64,000 bases of DNA from Corynebacterium rhinophilum (GTDB taxonomy: Bacteria; Actinomycetota; Actinomycetes; Mycobacteriales; Mycobacteriaceae), in the NCBI RefSeq assembly GCF_030227225.1, contig NZ_JASPHQ010000006.1, forward strand, positions 1-64,000, read 5' to 3'. A program made the translations under genes and the position numbers. Shown one piece after another: positions 217-54,757 of the stretch; within the stretch, counting starts at the first letter, position 1, and each line of letters begins with the position of its first letter. Below the pieces are notes generated by a model, which saw nothing but the letters and a program-made list of their open reading frames with translations, ran no database searches and was not told the DNA's origin.

Positions 217-714
217 TGTCAGATGCGAGTTTTTGGTACCGGTGTTCTGGGGACTCGGTACTGCCGTGTTCTGGGTAGTTGGTACCGGGGCGGGACGACG
301 GAGTCGGCTCGGCTGATTGCTTTATTCGTCCGGTTCCATTGGGGAGGTGGCTTTGCGCATGTCAAAGTCTCCTATGCGGATTCGGAGGCCGCTATTAAGG
401 CAGTTTACGAGTGAGGGTCTGACCCCGGAAAGTGGACACGTCGGGGGTTAGACCCCACCCCAATGTATGTGTGATCTGCGTATAGCTAGCACCGCCAAGG
501 CACATCGCAAGGATCTGTTTGAAGTTAGCCACAACAATGAGCTTCTTCCAAGTAGAAGCTGCTGCGACACCAACGAATCGTGGTGTCGCCAACATCAACT
601 ATGAAAGAAAAACCCTTGCAGTACCAGGTAAGCGTAACCCTGGTACCAACTACGCAGACTCACGGTACCAACTACGCGGACTCACGGTACCAACTACCCC
701 AAATCCACAACGAG
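217..714. mobile_element. Unidentified ~498 bp insert within the IS3 transposase
   Basis: The transposase reading frame stops after ACGAG (212-216) and resumes after a second ACGAG (710-714). The intervening segment therefore looks like an insertion with a possible 5-bp target duplication. It has no convincing gene. The motif GTAGTTGGTACC at 275-286 lies inverted relative to GGTACCAACTAC at 642, 664 and 686, so both flanks carry copies of one short motif in opposite orientation. A sequence resembling an IS3-type end (TCTGACCCCGGAAAGTGGAC) lies near 418-437. It may be a non-autonomous element or a composite of IS scraps. Confidence 0.55.
642..697 (+). repeat. 22-bp tandem repeat, about 2.5 copies
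   Basis: The unit GGTACCAACTACGCRGACTCAC occurs at 642-663 and 664-685 with one difference, then a partial GGTACCAACTAC at 686-697. The inverse motif GTAGTTGGTACC lies at 275-286 in the same inserted segment. This fits reiterated recombinase-binding sites near the end of a small element, but the function is inferred. Confidence 0.8.
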
Positions 715-1433
715 GTCTATGGTACCCCGCGAATCACCGCAAACTCGCCGAGCGCTACCAGATCACCTTGAATCGCAAGACTGTGGCCAAGCGGATGCAC
801 CTGATGGGCATTGAAGGGATGTCACCGCGTGCCTTCGTCCCAGCGACAACGATCCAAGCCAAGCGTAAATCTGCTCTTTCTGACCTGGTCAAGCGCATGT
901 TTGATACTGGTGAGCTCAATCGAGTATGGATGTCGGACATTACCTACCTGCGCACCGGCGAGGGCTGGTTGTATTTGTGCGTGGTCCGCGATGGTCATTC
1001 CCGCAGGGTGCTGGGCTGGGCTATGGATAGCGTGCAAGACACACGTTTGGTCGAACGAGCACTGCGGATGGCGCATACGCTGCGTGGTGACGTTCCTGAC
1101 GGGCTGGTGTTTCACGCTGACCGGGGAACACAATTTACCAGTGAGCAGCTCTGGGAGGTGTGCCGCAACCTGGGCGTTGCTCAGTCTGTGGGGCGTACCG
1201 GGGTGTGTTTCGATAATGCGTTGGCTGAGTCGTTCTGGTCGACACTTAAGACCGAGTTCTACGACCGGAAGCGCTGGCCAACCCGCGATGTTGCGCGTCA
1301 GGTTGTGGCTTACTGGATTGTAGTGGTCTACAACCGTCGGCGTCGGCATTCCGCTCTCGGGATGGTAAGCCCTGTCGATTTCGAGAACCACGCCAGCCTA
1401 ACCACCAGCAGAAAAGAAATCGCTGCCTAACCA

Positions 1434-1694
1434 CTAGGTAGCTCTACTACGTGTCCACGATTTGCGGACAACCCCATGCGGGGCACGAGAGCGTGGCGCG
1501 ATGGCGTTGGCGCCACCAGCATCAAAGACGTTGAGGATCTGATAGACGCGCTGGCGTGAGATACCAAAACGCTGAGCCACTCTAGAGGGGCGGCGACCTT
1601 GTTTGCGGACTGCGTTGACGATGGCCATGTTGCGGTTCGGGCTATTCATAGTGTCAAACATGTCGCGACTGATGAGTAAAACATCACTCAACAC
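1434..1694 (-). pseudogene. IS481-like transposase, N-terminal HTH fragment
   Basis: Only the N-terminal DNA-binding part remains (up to 86 residues). It contains a helix-turn-helix (RPSRVAQRFGISRQRVYQIL) followed by GGANAIAPRSRAPHG. The layout matches the start of the IS481-type transposase elsewhere in this window, which has TQTEAAEHFNVSTRWIRTL and then GGIKALEPRSKRPHT. The whole DDE domain is missing; the fragment ends where the neighbouring IS3 gene ends. It is therefore a truncated relic and not a regulator, although a free-standing HTH protein cannot be strictly excluded. Confidence 0.65.
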
Positions 1695-1731: not shown

Positions 1732-1842
1732 CCTGTCAACCATCACGACCACTTACCCAGGAACAGACTGTCAAATAAGTTATGAATTCAGACAGCTGTT
1801 GCCTACGAGATTAAGCCGTAATAATATATATTTTTGAGCGTT

Positions 1843-1871
1843 CTGACAATGATTTTGGGAAAAGATATACG
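1843..1871 (+). promoter_or_regulatory. Possible promoter of the secreted-protein island
   Basis: CTGACA at 1843-1848 and TATACG at 1866-1871 are separated by 17 bp, about 100 bp upstream of the 219-aa secreted protein. The surrounding 200 bp are notably AT-rich. The assignment rests only on sequence resemblance. Confidence 0.3.
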
Positions 1872-1972
1872 TTCGTTTACGTTTTCCCTCTTTCGCTTTC
1901 AAATTTGTCTACTGCATGCGATCTTAGAGGTGTCCGGATTTTCATCCATCTCCTCTCGAAAGGTTTAAGAGT

Positions 1973-2632
1973 ATGTATCGTCCCAAGAAATCTGCGCTTT
2001 TAGCGATGCTGATTACCGCAGCAACAGTTTTTGTTCCGGCTAATGCTGGTGCCGAGACTGTGACTGGCCCCGATGCATCGTCTCAGAATAATGAGTCTCC
2101 GTCTTCTGTGTCCTCAGTATTGCTCGAAAATGCAGATTCCTATGTTTCCCTACGAGGAGATCAATTCTCGGTTGATAGCGAGGCGGAAAGCGCTTTCTCC
2201 CAAAAAGATCTGCAGGAAATTGAAAATGAGGTAAAGGCTCAGAACGAAAAAATCAATGAGGCCAAGGCTGATAGCAACCTCGAGATGAAGGTAGCGGGAG
2301 ACTCGGTAACGTTCTGGGAAAAGGGACCGAAGATCTCGAGCTCTGATAACGATGACATTGATCCATACTTTCAAGAAGGCCGGAATGGAATTGAATTCCA
2401 TGGCACTACTGTAAGGCTGCTGATGTCCAAAACGACGATCAACCGTATGGGTAACGGTATTGCAATCGGTGGAATTTGGGTTCCCGAACCAGTAGTTTCC
2501 AAAATCCTAGCTACTGCAGGGGTTCTTGGTGGCGTTGCACCTGGTGGTATCTATGCCGACTTTGGTATTGCTTCGATTGTGACTGGCGCTATTATGCAGA
2601 CTGCAATTCCACAACGGGTTGGTTTCCAATAA
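1973..2632 (+). CDS. Secreted 219-aa protein with Gly-rich hydrophobic C-terminus (bacteriocin-like candidate)
   Basis: I do not recognise a named family. Residues 1-27 form a Sec signal peptide (basic start, hydrophobic core, ANA/AGA cleavage region), giving a mature protein of about 192 aa. Residues about 28-150 are polar, with an E/K/N-rich helical stretch (about 72-105) and an acidic SSSDNDDIDPYF. From about residue 150 the character changes: NGIEFHGTTVRLL, then MGNGIAIGGIWV, then a glycine-rich hydrophobic helix-like segment to the end. There are no cysteines. A GAAAGG Shine-Dalgarno precedes the ATG. It is followed by a 45-aa membrane protein and a secreted serine protease. The architecture resembles secreted proproteins that release a hydrophobic antimicrobial C-terminal peptide, such as protease-activated PAMP of Propionibacterium. 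That function is inference only. Confidence 0.75.
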   Translation: MYRPKKSALLAMLITAATVFVPANAGAETVTGPDASSQNNESPSSVSSVLLENADSYVSLRGDQFSVDSEAESAFSQKDLQEIENEVKAQNEKINEAKADSNLEMKVAGDSVTFWEKGPKISSSDNDDIDPYFQEGRNGIEFHGTTVRLLMSKTTINRMGNGIAIGGIWVPEPVVSKILATAGVLGGVAPGGIYADFGIASIVTGAIMQTAIPQRVGFQ

Positions 2633-2771
2633 ATTATCCCTGAACTAAGCACTAAGGGATTGGCGGTAGCGTGATTGGAATGTTGCCATACGGATGTCGC
2701 TGTATTGTTTAGATAATACTCAAAGAGAATCTTCCGGCTAGGAAGATTCAAGATGGTTGGGAGAGGAAATT

Positions 2772-2909
2772 ATGTGGAAAAAGCTGTTGGCCACTGTGGG
2801 TGTTCTTCTGATGGCGCTTTCCGTTTACGCTAAGTGGCCGTATGTCGTGACGATTGCTCTAGCAATTTTGGTCATTCTCCTCATATTTGTCCCCTATGGG
2901 AAGAAATAA
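2772..2909 (+). CDS. 45-aa small membrane protein (possible immunity partner)
   Basis: The frame encodes MWKKLLATVGVLLMALSVYA followed by KWPYVVTIALAILVILLIFV and PYGKK. That makes two closely spaced hydrophobic segments (about residues 5-19 and 24-40) with lysines at both ends. GAGAGGAAATT just before the ATG is a good ribosome binding site. The gene lies 139 bp after the secreted 219-aa protein and 7 bp before a strong hairpin terminator, so it is probably the last gene of that transcript. Tiny two-helix membrane proteins next to secreted peptides are often immunity proteins, but nothing in the sequence proves that here. It is too short for most automated callers. Confidence 0.6.
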   Translation: MWKKLLATVGVLLMALSVYAKWPYVVTIALAILVILLIFVPYGKK

Positions 2910-2915
2910 AACCTG

Positions 2916-2960
2916 AGAAGAGGTAGGACTTTAGATGTACCTACCTCTTCTTTATTTTTA
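2916..2960 (+). terminator. Rho-independent terminator after the 45-aa ORF
   Basis: AGAAGAGGTAGG (2916-2927) pairs perfectly with CCTACCTCTTCT (2940-2951) around a 12-nt loop, followed by the T-rich TTATTTTTA. It overlaps the 5' end of the longest open frame of the next gene, which argues against the upstream ATG at 2935. Confidence 0.85.
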
Positions 2961-2973
2961 TGAATTATTAATT

Positions 2974-3666
2974 ATGAAAAACGAAATCACTCCAATAATG
3001 AGCCGTGTAGTCCTCTTCTCTTTGGCTAGTGTATTGACAGCAGCCCCGGCTTCATCAGCATCTATTGCGCAGCAGCAGAATTCTGATCCTCTTTCATACA
3101 TAGAAAGTGGTGACGAGATACAGGTGGGCCCTCCTCAAGGGGCGGTGACATGTTCTGTAACTATCATTTCCCAACGACGGGCCTTAACTGCAGGTCACTG
3201 CGGCGAAAAAGCGGATGAGGTATATTCAAAAGGTAGGCGCATTGGAAGTGTTGGCGAAAATTACTTGTTGAGTAGCCAAGGATCGGATGTTTCAGAAATA
3301 CTTCTTGATTCCCCTACCAATTACGCTCTCCGAGTCGATAAAGTCAGTGATAAAGAAGTCGAAATCCCTTCCACTATTTTTACCAAAACGTTTCTTGGAG
3401 GGAGAATTCAGGGGACTATCGACGACAAGAACCTATATTGTGAGGGTGTTTCCCTAGCGGGGAGGAATTTCCAGGCGCGCACTCTTAAAGCTCAAATAGC
3501 TTCAATACCTGGGGATTCGGGTGCTCCTGTCTATAATTCTGCGGGGGAATTGGTAGCCCTTATTGAAGGTGGTAATGGTAAAGGTGATACTACTATTACG
3601 CCAATTTCCTTTCTAGAGAAAAGCGTTGAAGACTATCCGACTAATGATTGTAAAACAAATAAATAA
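2974..3666 (+). CDS. Secreted trypsin-like serine protease
   Basis: This is a chymotrypsin-fold (S1) protease of about 230 aa exported by a signal peptide (RVVLFSLASVLTAAPASSA). The catalytic triad is visible: His75 in LTAGHC, Asp105 in GSDVSEIL and Ser182 in IPGDSGAPV. Cys60 and Cys76 flank the His as in the usual disulfide. An in-frame ATG at 2935 lies inside the preceding terminator, so I place the start at 2974; ATG 2998 is an equally compact alternative, and neither has a strong Shine-Dalgarno. Because a terminator separates it from the 45-aa ORF, it needs read-through or its own promoter. Proximity to a secreted proprotein suggests a processing role, which is an inference. Confidence 0.85.
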   Translation: MKNEITPIMSRVVLFSLASVLTAAPASSASIAQQQNSDPLSYIESGDEIQVGPPQGAVTCSVTIISQRRALTAGHCGEKADEVYSKGRRIGSVGENYLLSSQGSDVSEILLDSPTNYALRVDKVSDKEVEIPSTIFTKTFLGGRIQGTIDDKNLYCEGVSLAGRNFQARTLKAQIASIPGDSGAPVYNSAGELVALIEGGNGKGDTTITPISFLEKSVEDYPTNDCKTNK

Positions 3667-3822
3667 ACTGTATCAATTTATTTTCTGGTCAAGTCCGATG
3701 GAGTGGTGTATCTGTCCTTTCTGAATCGGTGGTTCGGGGACAGTGTCAGGGTCGGTGTTGGGGTCCGGCTCGGGGTTGATGTTGGTTCAATTTGAAGCGT
3801 CCTGGGTTTGGTTCCGCTTCTT

Positions 3823-4699
3823 TTACGGCCCTGTGTTGATGGGCTGGGTGAGATAGTACTCGGTTTCTACTTCCAGTGGGGCGGCGTAGTCCAACGCCTC
3901 GTGAAGACGTTTGGTGTTCCACCAGTGTGTCCACCGCAGGGTTGCTAGCTCGACTTCTCCCACTGACGTCCACGGGCCTTGAAAATGGATAAGTTCAGCC
4001 TTGTAGAGACCGTTGACCGTCTCCGCGAGCGCGTTGTCATAGGAATCTCCGACTGTGCCAACACTCGGCCGGATCTCGGCTTCGGCCAAAGCAGTGGAGT
4101 ACTTCAGTGACACTCACTGACTTCCCCGATCACTGTGGTGCACTAGCTGGTCTCCATGGATTCGACCGGCAGTCGTTAATGCATGTTCCAGTGCCTCCCA
4201 TCGGCAGCGCATCGGTGCGCATCGTAGAGCGGGTGGCAACACCGACTATTTTGCTGCTGCAGACGTCAATGACAAATGCGGTGTACGCAAATCCTGAGAG
4301 GGTGCGAACATAGGTAATGTCGGCGACCCAAAGTCGCCCAGGTGCTGCTGCCCGGAAGTGTCGCTGCACAAGGTCCGGACGATGATCCGGAACTTTAGGG
4401 CTGATCGTGGTGACCGGGGTTTGTCCACGTCGTCGACCGGACACACCTGCAAGTTTCATCAGGCGTGCGGTCTTGTCGCGGCCGATATGAAAGCCTTCAC
4501 GGTTCATGGCGTGCCACATCTTGCGAATACCGTAGTCCGAGAAGTTTTCCGCATGGACGCGCTGTATCTTTGGGATGATAAGGCTATCGCTTAAGGCCCT
4601 GGCGCTTGGGGCGCGGGTGGTGGCTTTACGGTAGCCGCGGGAGGTAATGAATCCACGATCTGCTTGTTTCAGAACACGGCAGATGGCCCCGGGCCCCAA
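3823..4699 (-). pseudogene. IS3 copy A transposase OrfB, frameshifted
   Basis: The N-terminal two thirds reads GPGAICRVLKQADRGFITSR through [20 protein letters not shown], then loses frame at about 4190. The C-terminal part reappears as VGTVGDSYDNALAETVNGLY and ends in a normal IS3 tail. Between them, H-S-D-R-G-S-Q is followed directly by TGA where Tyr is expected. The two Asp and the Glu of the DDE triad are therefore all still encoded, but in separate frames. At least one frameshift and one nonsense mutation inactivate it. Confidence 0.85.
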
Positions 4700-5046
4700 A
4701 TTGCTCCTTGTACTCGTCGATGTAGGAGATCATCTGGTCGTGGGTCGGTCGAGTTCCGCTGCGAAAAAGCCGAAGCAGTCTTAAGAATCCCGTTTGCTCG
4801 TTTCAACTCGCGGTTTTCCCGGCGCAGACGCTTGAGCTCTTCTTCCATGGTTTCGCCATCTGTTGGTGTCGTCTGCTCATGGGCGAGGCTGTCGCGGTAC
4901 CAGGCGCGTAACGTGTAGTGGGACACGCCAAGGAGCTCAACGACTTCCTCGTACGCGCGTTGCCGTGAGCAGGACTCCAGACGGACCATCTCTAGGACTT
5001 GATGGACCGCCTTCTCCTTGAATTCGGCGGAATACTTTCTGGGCAT
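4669..5046 (-). pseudogene. IS3 copy A OrfA with altered 3' end
   Basis: The protein starts MPRKYSAEFKEKAV, carries a helix-turn-helix (LGVSHYTLRAWY) and a heptad-like coiled coil (EEELKRLRRENRELKRANGI), and reaches KTASAF. At that point only five T's occur where intact relatives would need six to continue FFAAELDRPTTR-stop. It therefore reads on in the wrong frame into the OrfB region. The element is thus defective in both genes. Confidence 0.75.
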
Positions 5047-5097: not shown

Positions 5098-6404
<1,307 letters not shown>

Positions 6405-54055: not shown

Positions 54056-54757
54056 ATGAAAAAGCTTTTTTATAACCGGAAACTCGTCGTTTCCATCTTC
54101 GTGGTTTTAATCCTCGTGCTTACCGCCGTAGCGATCGGCCCGATTGTGTACTCGCTTTTCAAAAGCGGCGGCGTCAAGACGGAGCCCGTGACTGCCGATG
54201 GTGCCAAGGCAGCCTCAACGCCGCTCGACGGCTCCTGGTCCGTGGCCAAGGGCCGCGCCGATAACCACACCTCGGTGGGCTTTACCTTCGACGAGGTTCT
54301 ACCGGCGGAAAGGACGTCCACCTCTGGATCGACCACGGAGGTTACCGGCCAGGCGGAGATTTCCAATTCCACGCTGGAATCCGCCACCACTACGGTCAAT
54401 ATGGATGCCCTCACCACGGACAAGAAGGTCCGCGACCAAAACATGAAGTCCAAGCTCTTTAAGACTTCAGACTTCCCAGAGTCTTCCTTCACACTTACTA
54501 AGCCCGCCTCGCTTGCCGATGTCCCCGAAGACGGCACCATCGGCTCCGTTAAGCTCACTGGTGACCTCACGATCAAGGATAAAACGCAGGAAATCACCCA
54601 CGAGTTCGATGTCCTGCGCGACGGTGACGATATCGTCATTGGCGGAGACGTTCCGATCAACCGCCTGGACTACAACGTGGAGACGCCAGACATGCTGGCG
54701 GCAAAGGTTGCCGAGGACGGCGAGATCAACCTGCGCATCTCCTTGAATAAGGACTAG
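54056..54757 (+). CDS. YceI-family lipid-binding-like protein, membrane-anchored
   Basis: The 233-aa protein has an N-terminal membrane anchor (LVVSIFVVLILVLTAVAIGP, about 10-30). A YceI lipocalin-like beta barrel follows: PLDGSWSVAKGRADNHTSVG, AEISNSTLESATTTVNMDAL, DFPESSFTLTKPASL and INRLDYNVETPDM. YceI proteins bind polyisoprenoids; anchoring on the outer face of the membrane is typical in Corynebacterium. It lies in a tight three-gene group with the zinc-binding gene and a 54-aa membrane protein. Confidence 0.88.
   Translation: MKKLFYNRKLVVSIFVVLILVLTAVAIGPIVYSLFKSGGVKTEPVTADGAKAASTPLDGSWSVAKGRADNHTSVGFTFDEVLPAERTSTSGSTTEVTGQAEISNSTLESATTTVNMDALTTDKKVRDQNMKSKLFKTSDFPESSFTLTKPASLADVPEDGTIGSVKLTGDLTIKDKTQEITHEFDVLRDGDDIVIGGDVPINRLDYNVETPDMLAAKVAEDGEINLRISLNKD

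Follow-up and report, generated by a model that had tools for sequence, protein, structure and literature searches.

The window, the whole stretch of 64,000 nucleotides analysed here from Corynebacterium rhinophilum (genome G000), carried three genes between positions 1973 and 3666. All three were on the + strand in the ORF listing, as the first-pass annotation had read them. They code for a secreted bacteriocin-like protein, a small membrane protein and a secreted serine protease. The features of the locus were:

519..1430, + strand: IS3-type transposase OrfB-like ORF (rve), left flank
1434..1694, − strand: helix-turn-helix fragment (HTH_28), left flank, probably derived from a transposon
1973..2632, + strand: gene for a 219-aa bacteriocin-like protein, predicted to be Sec-exported, with a predicted mature mass of ~20.4 kDa and pI of 4.4 (computed from residue 27 onward)
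1973..2047, + strand: predicted signal peptide, residues 1–25 (ANA) or to residue 27 (AGA)
2321..2377, + strand: acidic loop, residues 117–135 (KGPKISSSDNDDIDPYFQE), a candidate cleavage zone
2378..2629, + strand: conserved C-terminal domain, residues 136–219 (SKTT ... GIWVPEP ... SKILAT ... PGG ... Q-end)
2633..2771, + strand: 139-nt spacer, aligning with G180 and three toxin-deleted loci
2772..2909, + strand: 45-aa two-helix membrane protein, proposed immunity protein; its gene is nested in a 50-aa frame starting at 2757 in the ORF listing
2906..2961, + strand: terminator-like hairpin behind the two-gene unit, core stem about 2915–2952, T-rich tail
2974..3666, + strand: secreted chymotrypsin-fold serine protease (H75, D105, S182), alternative start 2998, ORF from 2935
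3823..5046, − strand: broken IS3-type transposase, right flank, in three ORF pieces (rve_3, HTH_21/rve, HTH_Tnp_1)
5145..6385, + strand: second broken IS-like transposase, of which one piece (5752–6075) was tested and gave rve

The genes lay, as proposed earlier, in an AT-rich island between insertion sequence relics. The G + C content was 44.1% in 1775–3700 and 58.3% in 6500–64000, where none of the 1112 sliding windows of equal length was equally low. Transposase/integrase pieces flanked the three-gene stretch on the left and on the right. The start of the window is the end of contig C65, from a 92-contig assembly, and the left context stops there. Since this 106 kb contig also carries a TetR regulator and a 976-aa ORF read as an aconitase, the locus looks chromosomal. 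The neighbouring ORFs tested were the protease and insertion sequence pieces, with no modification enzyme among them.

The 219-aa protein had the anatomy first described for it: a signal-peptide-like N-terminus ending in ANA/AGA (read from the sequence), an acidic polar middle, no cysteine and 12 glycines within residues 145–219. No Pfam or NCBIfam model scored above its cut-off, and there was no Pfam match even at E ≤ 1. In an AlphaFold model made from 22 sequences (mean pLDDT 69.6, pTM 0.64), residues 46–219 formed one alpha/beta unit and residues 1–45 had very low confidence; weaker stretches were 121–140 (63 and 69), 181–190 (66) and 201–210 (65). The model had no credible structural match in PDB or BFVD. 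Because residues 46–219 were modelled as one unit, the prediction is that the hydrophobic C-terminal segment belongs to the folded protein and is not a free tail. The middle, formerly taken for a disposable pro-region, does not look like one. It is conserved, with N91 and G136 invariant, like G192 and Q219, in an alignment of 16 sequences (A3), and it is predicted with moderate confidence to fold together with the C-terminal part. In a closer alignment of seven sequences (A5), the stretch GxGVxIGGIWVPEPVVSKILATxG was mostly invariant.

A single-sequence search of 5.8 billion proteins with the 219-aa query gave 19 matches, of which roughly half were near-identical variants. With a profile as query, at least 35 family proteins were recovered among 7996 scored candidates, those sharing most words. 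Members were found in Corynebacterium, Bifidobacterium, Listeria, Lactobacillaceae, Weissella, Lactococcus, Mammaliicoccus and Oscillospiraceae, partly on plasmids. Outside Corynebacterium, the relatives from genomes belonged to Bifidobacterium, Lactobacillaceae and Oscillospiraceae; plasmid-borne relatives came from Mammaliicoccus, Weissella, Listeria, Lactobacillus, Lactococcus and C. efficiens (pCE3). The Mammaliicoccus plasmid was 2.3 kb long and had one further annotated ORF, of 299 aa. Among 242 Corynebacterium genomes the family profile matched 10, and among 396 Actinomycetota genomes two, one being the window genome. The gene was absent from G153, a genome of the same species. A match in G008 (L027, E 9e-4) was judged to be due to chance and was dropped. 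In L023 (G137:C10) and L034 the family gene is probably broken, since it is split over two overlapping frames; the two-helix partner was open in both. No member with assayed activity was found in the family, and a title-level search found no publication on such a Corynebacterium protein, although reports could be missed because the family is nameless.

The loci of G035 (L021) and G231 (L074) were 99.9% identical across 11 kb. These genomes are separate entries in a collection that is said to contain a single genome for each species, and their identity suggests very close kin or recent transfer. Two Listeria plasmids, pj1-0208 (L030, L. monocytogenes) and pLIS5 (L014, L. seeligeri), bear the family pair, with a two-helix partner of 66–68 aa; both pairs are annotated as hypothetical or not at all. 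Enterococcus made up 58 of the 77 plasmid records matched by the family protein P0015. The Enterococcus matches listed aligned only with the first ~80 residues of P0015, mainly the signal peptide. The E. faecalis locus L019, which shares mainly the signal peptide with P0015, was kept out of profile A3; the C-terminal part of its ORF (L019:2043-2684) differs from that of P0015. A metagenomic protein, P0037, joined a near-cut-off N-terminal Helveticin_J fragment to the C-terminal part of the 219-aa family; it may be either a genuine fusion or a chimera of the assembly.

The second gene had been noted as a tiny two-helix membrane protein that could be an immunity factor. Its 45-aa product had two hydrophobic segments. 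A two-helix ORF of 40–80 aa immediately downstream on the same strand was found at 18 of the 21 family loci and for 5 of 179 control ORFs, by criteria chosen after several loci had been seen and with some loci being close kin (L021 and L074, 99.9% identical). The 21 loci comprised 10 from Corynebacterium and 11 others, with G137 and G167/G097 included and C. efficiens counted through a short downstream piece (L029). At the three remaining loci the two-helix ORF was on the other strand (L012, L033) or ~670 nt downstream (L084). Within Corynebacterium, an ORF of this kind with 45–56 aa followed within 130 nt in G180, G035, G231, G011, G137, G167, G097 and pCE3. The partner had 56 aa in Weissella, 68 aa in L. 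seeligeri, 66 aa in L. monocytogenes, 59 aa in Lactococcus, 60 aa in Lactobacillus, and 55 and 71 aa in the Oscillospiraceae frames. In a Lactobacillaceae MAG the frame measured 97 aa when read from the first start, and 79 aa with the start that fits the pairing criteria. With the 45-aa protein as query, the counterparts in G011 and G035 were matched weakly and those in G167 and G097 not at all, and the wider pairing argument is therefore one of position and topology. We propose that the 45-aa protein is the immunity protein of the pair. One of the five control matches, L083, was weakly homologous to it (E 0.004). Another lay in the window itself, where a YceI-domain protein (54056-54757, + strand) had a 54-aa two-helix ORF 4 nt downstream.

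Five Corynebacterium genomes (G168, G101, G186, G012 and G057) had lost the mature 219-aa protein. In all of them the equivalent of 1900–2046 was fused directly to the equivalent of 2603–2963, an in-frame deletion with a shared junction at the end of the signal peptide. The upstream region, signal peptide, toxin end, spacer, membrane gene and hairpin were retained. The toxin remnant in G168 was the signal peptide plus LSRRVGFQ, and the other four had a stop at the last codon. The shared junction and the synteny of the five loci, at 86–98% DNA identity, indicate a single deletion event that was kept through divergence. The 45-aa gene was open from its own start in four of the five (G101, G186, G012 and G057, 73–76% identity), in keeping with an immunity factor. 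In G168 a length difference near the start put the equivalent ATG out of frame with the body, which was open within a longer frame that has a different start; the membrane gene of this genome may therefore be in decay. G100 had an orphan copy of the 45-aa gene, at which no bacteriocin remnant was found. Weak 45-aa matches in G045, G067 and G001 were excluded from the orphans, and G187 (E 2e-6) was also left out.

Between the window and G180, dN/dS was 0.35 for residues 1–144 of the bacteriocin, 1.00 for residues 145–219, 0.40 for the immunity gene and 0.24 for the protease, a contrast drawn from two sequences with few changes. The whole bacteriocin had a dN/dS of 0.58 in this pair, against the 0.24 of the protease. 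Amino acid changes were concentrated in residues 145–219, as compared to 27–144, relative to three close relatives, P0007 (10/75 and 4/118, p 0.019), P0008 (17/75 and 5/118, p 0.0001) and P0009 (18/75 and 9/118, p 0.002); relative to P0011 there was no significant C-terminal excess (26/75 and 29/118, p 0.14). The four comparisons are non-independent, with the same positions recurring. For the membrane gene, dN/dS was 0.29–0.59 between the window or G180 and the toxin-deleted lineage. It exceeded 1 in two pairs with 2–3 synonymous changes, G101–G168 (1.12) and G186–G168 (1.72), and G101 and G186 differed by one nonsynonymous and one synonymous change. Because the changes within the lineage are few and the pairs with G168 have dN/dS >1, ongoing selection on the orphan membrane gene is not proven.

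The spread of the family, the near-constant pairing, the loss of the toxin with an open membrane gene and the patchiness argue for a bacteriocin with its immunity protein. We consider it likely that the locus is a mobile bacteriocin-immunity cassette, which a protease accompanies in some Corynebacterium lineages. We infer killing, immunity, target and cleavage as follows. The 219-aa protein would be exported by Sec and lose its signal peptide after residue 25–27, giving a mature acidic protein of ~20 kDa, in which the conserved glycine-rich C-terminal domain (136–219) would do the damage. Most likely, as dysgalacticin is reported to do, it would engage a membrane protein of close competitors and disturb the membrane. 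In the producer membrane, the 45-aa two-helix protein would block the damage step. In some Corynebacterium lineages the secreted serine protease, travelling with the pair, would have the bacteriocin as its extracellular substrate, with the acidic loop (residues 117–135) as the most plausible site of action. Judged from sequence, the two genes appear to represent an uncharacterised bacteriocin and immunity pair that occurs in several other bacterial groups too.

Class III bacteriocins are described as unmodified and larger than 10 kDa in the part of PMC4786598 available, and the 219-aa protein, with its signal-peptide-like start and ~20.4 kDa mature form, agrees with this class in size and secretion. 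Dysgalacticin and streptococcin A-M57 are non-lytic class III bacteriocins with the glucose/mannose PTS as target. According to the available part of PMC8308785, dysgalacticin (dysA/dysI, Streptococcus dysgalactiae subsp. equisimilis) is made as a 220-aa precursor with a Sec leader of ~28 aa, has 21.5 kDa, and is plasmid-borne with an adjacent gene for a membrane-associated immunity factor. By these descriptions, the protein in the window (219 aa, ~20.4 kDa) resembles it in size, layout and pairing, and by position and topology the adjacent small membrane gene at 18 of 21 loci takes the place of the immunity factor. The excerpted text of PMC5702455 has dysI transcribed with copG-repB, whereas in the window the membrane gene comes immediately after the toxin gene. 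The available text of PMC8308785 and PMC5702455 does not mention a protease, and the window has a linked one. Dysgalacticin is plasmid-encoded; the window locus looks chromosomal, though many of its relatives are plasmid-borne. There were no Streptococcus records among the plasmid matches of the family, and the comparison with dysgalacticin was one of size, layout and pairing. The SdpC/SdpI system of Bacillus subtilis combines a Sec-exported precursor, hydrophobic in its C-terminal part, with an immunity protein in the membrane. The window pair is alike in these respects. It differs in that the 45-aa protein was below the cut-off of Pfam SdpI (10.2 bits, cut-off 28.2), the 219-aa protein had no Pfam match and the tested neighbours were insertion sequence pieces.

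The earlier reading of the third gene as a secreted trypsin-like protease with an intact triad was confirmed. The protein belongs to the S1 chymotrypsin-fold proteases, with 30.5 bits against Pfam Trypsin (cut-off 20.6) and with H75, D105 and S182, which we take to be the His-Asp-Ser triad. Its structural model (pLDDT 64.5, from five sequences) had a chymotrypsin fold, the L5 protease being the best structural match (E 1.7e-9). As read from the sequence, the pocket residue before the active serine appears not to be the Asp of trypsin. The fold and the triad are common to the L5 protease, alpha-lytic protease and streptogrisin, but the window protease appears to represent a narrow subfamily. 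Solved structures were matched weakly in sequence (viral capsid proteases best, E 0.0017; streptogrisin B, 0.008), and a search of 5.8 billion sequences, of limited sensitivity, gave four homologues at E ≤ 0.001. A start at 2998 or 2974 appears likelier than one at 2935, because 2935 falls inside the hairpin; G180 has no conserved counterpart of the ATG at 2974, and the first listed start of its protease corresponds to 2998. The hairpin between the second and third genes was strong (z = −7.7), closes the two-gene unit, and lies in a region alignable with G180 and three toxin-deleted loci. A pattern scan with a loop limit of 8 did not list it.

Protease matches at E ≤ 1e-5 were present in 9 of 201 Corynebacterium genomes. 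The strong ones (G000, G180 and G035) were all at bacteriocin loci, and G231, found later, also carries the protease. All three genes thus occur together in G180, G035 and G231 as well as in the window, so the refuting condition named in the first-pass annotation, a complete lack of co-occurrence in other genomes, does not apply. In G035 the linkage was retained at 39–40% identity in both proteins, with stretches without DNA similarity. At the divergent locus of G023 (profile E 3.7e-8), a non-orthologous secreted trypsin-fold protease adjoined on the opposite strand. As the nine genomes tested had merely 2–7 matches each to either trypsin-fold model, we estimate chance adjacency at about 1% per locus. 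No homologue of the window protease was found in the fetched stretches of G011, G137, G167 and G097. The G167 and G097 loci had a trypsin-fold gene ~3.9 kb away, which we take for a core gene, since one of similar rank and size was present in all nine genomes. Outside Corynebacterium, none of the 11 family loci had a trypsin-fold gene nearby: seven whole plasmids were without any, and four genomes had two matches each, outside the fetched flanks. That the protease is a linked partner of the pair is therefore partly supported, with the linkage in the window, G180 and G035/G231 and the analogue in G023 on one side, and the intervening hairpin and the loci outside the genus on the other.

The first-pass annotation had proposed a three-part system, in which the protease could release the C-terminal peptide of the precursor. 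In the form weighed here, a dedicated protease would cut the precursor, and the active peptide would consist of its last ~84 residues. The protease linkage, the low chance of the G023 adjacency and the four homologues in the global search favor this, as does the acidic, lower-confidence loop ahead of the C-terminal domain, which was common to the protease-linked proteins of the window, G180 and G035 (the G023 protein was left out of this alignment). Because of this loop, maturation of the 219-aa protein by the linked protease is possible. However, a similar loop was present in P0008, P0009, P0011 and P0013, which were compared as proteins only; being common to relatives, it leaves room for the protease link to reflect descent only. 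Together with the four Corynebacterium loci and the 11 loci outside the genus that have no such protease, the hairpin between the genes and the joint folding of residues 46–219 in the model, this makes the three-part system doubtful. The toxin-immunity part of the earlier proposal was thus upheld by pairing and toxin loss, and the three-gene processing part in some points only. The wider claim, of an unnamed bacteriocin superfamily in Actinomycetota and Bacillota in which the cassette protease cuts the acidic loop to free an 84-residue membrane-active domain and the 45-aa protein protects, is rather doubtful as a whole.

A parallel for such processing is PAMP of Propionibacterium jensenii, which the accessible part of PMC5756557 describes as a secreted 198-aa precursor with a 27-aa signal and a C-terminal active part. 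The same source has it activated extracellularly by proteases, an added protease such as proteinase K being sufficient. In PAMP the protease was added, whereas in the window locus a protease gene is linked, and the fragment would have ~84 aa, predicted inside one folded domain. The parallel is limited to the proteolytic step, which is a proposal for the window locus.

Alternatively, the protease may be a second weapon or shield, which destroys rival bacteriocins or frees nutrients and is linked because cassettes collect competition genes. It is set apart from the two-gene unit by the hairpin, and is more constrained than the bacteriocin. The linkage persists in G035 despite the divergence of both proteins and of the surrounding DNA, and G023 has an unrelated protease in the same place, which makes this alternative unlikely. 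It is quite improbable that the pair is non-antibacterial, with the secreted protein acting at the surface or in signalling and the small membrane protein serving it as anchor, export aid or sensor. In favor of this reading, the antibacterial role is a prediction from sequence, the moderate-confidence model has no fold match and the orphan membrane gene of G168 may be in decay. Against it, four genomes lost the secreted protein but have an open membrane gene, carriage is on plasmids and patchy, and changes concentrate in the C-terminal domain.

The proposed bacteriocin-immunity cassette gives a testable two-gene definition, the conserved C-terminal domain plus the two-helix partner. It covers a bacteriocin family that ranges over corynebacteria, Listeria and lactic acid bacteria and is called hypothetical in the annotations examined. 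With the relatives that have the membrane gene but no toxin, both the immunity role and cheater dynamics can be tested directly. Through the linked protease, the extracellular activation of a large bacteriocin can be put to the test as well; if the cassette protease does activate the toxin, the locus would encode a large bacteriocin together with an activator of its own that works outside the cell.

Further small membrane genes of this kind were seen elsewhere. A decayed second copy of the 45-aa gene, with 43% identity and two stops, was found in the window genome (G000:C15:24122-24241, L080) and in G153 (G153:C32:25434-25553, L082). Plasmid pCE3 had another two-helix homologue of the 45-aa protein (L026:257-373, − strand; 44% over 39 residues). 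In L031, a 254-aa ORF (2055-2819, − strand) lay ~1 kb away from the gene of the Lactobacillaceae family member. Its product had a hydrophobic N-terminus and matched no Pfam model at E ≤ 0.01, and a two-helix ORF of 64 aa came after it; the two may form another bacteriocin-immunity pair.
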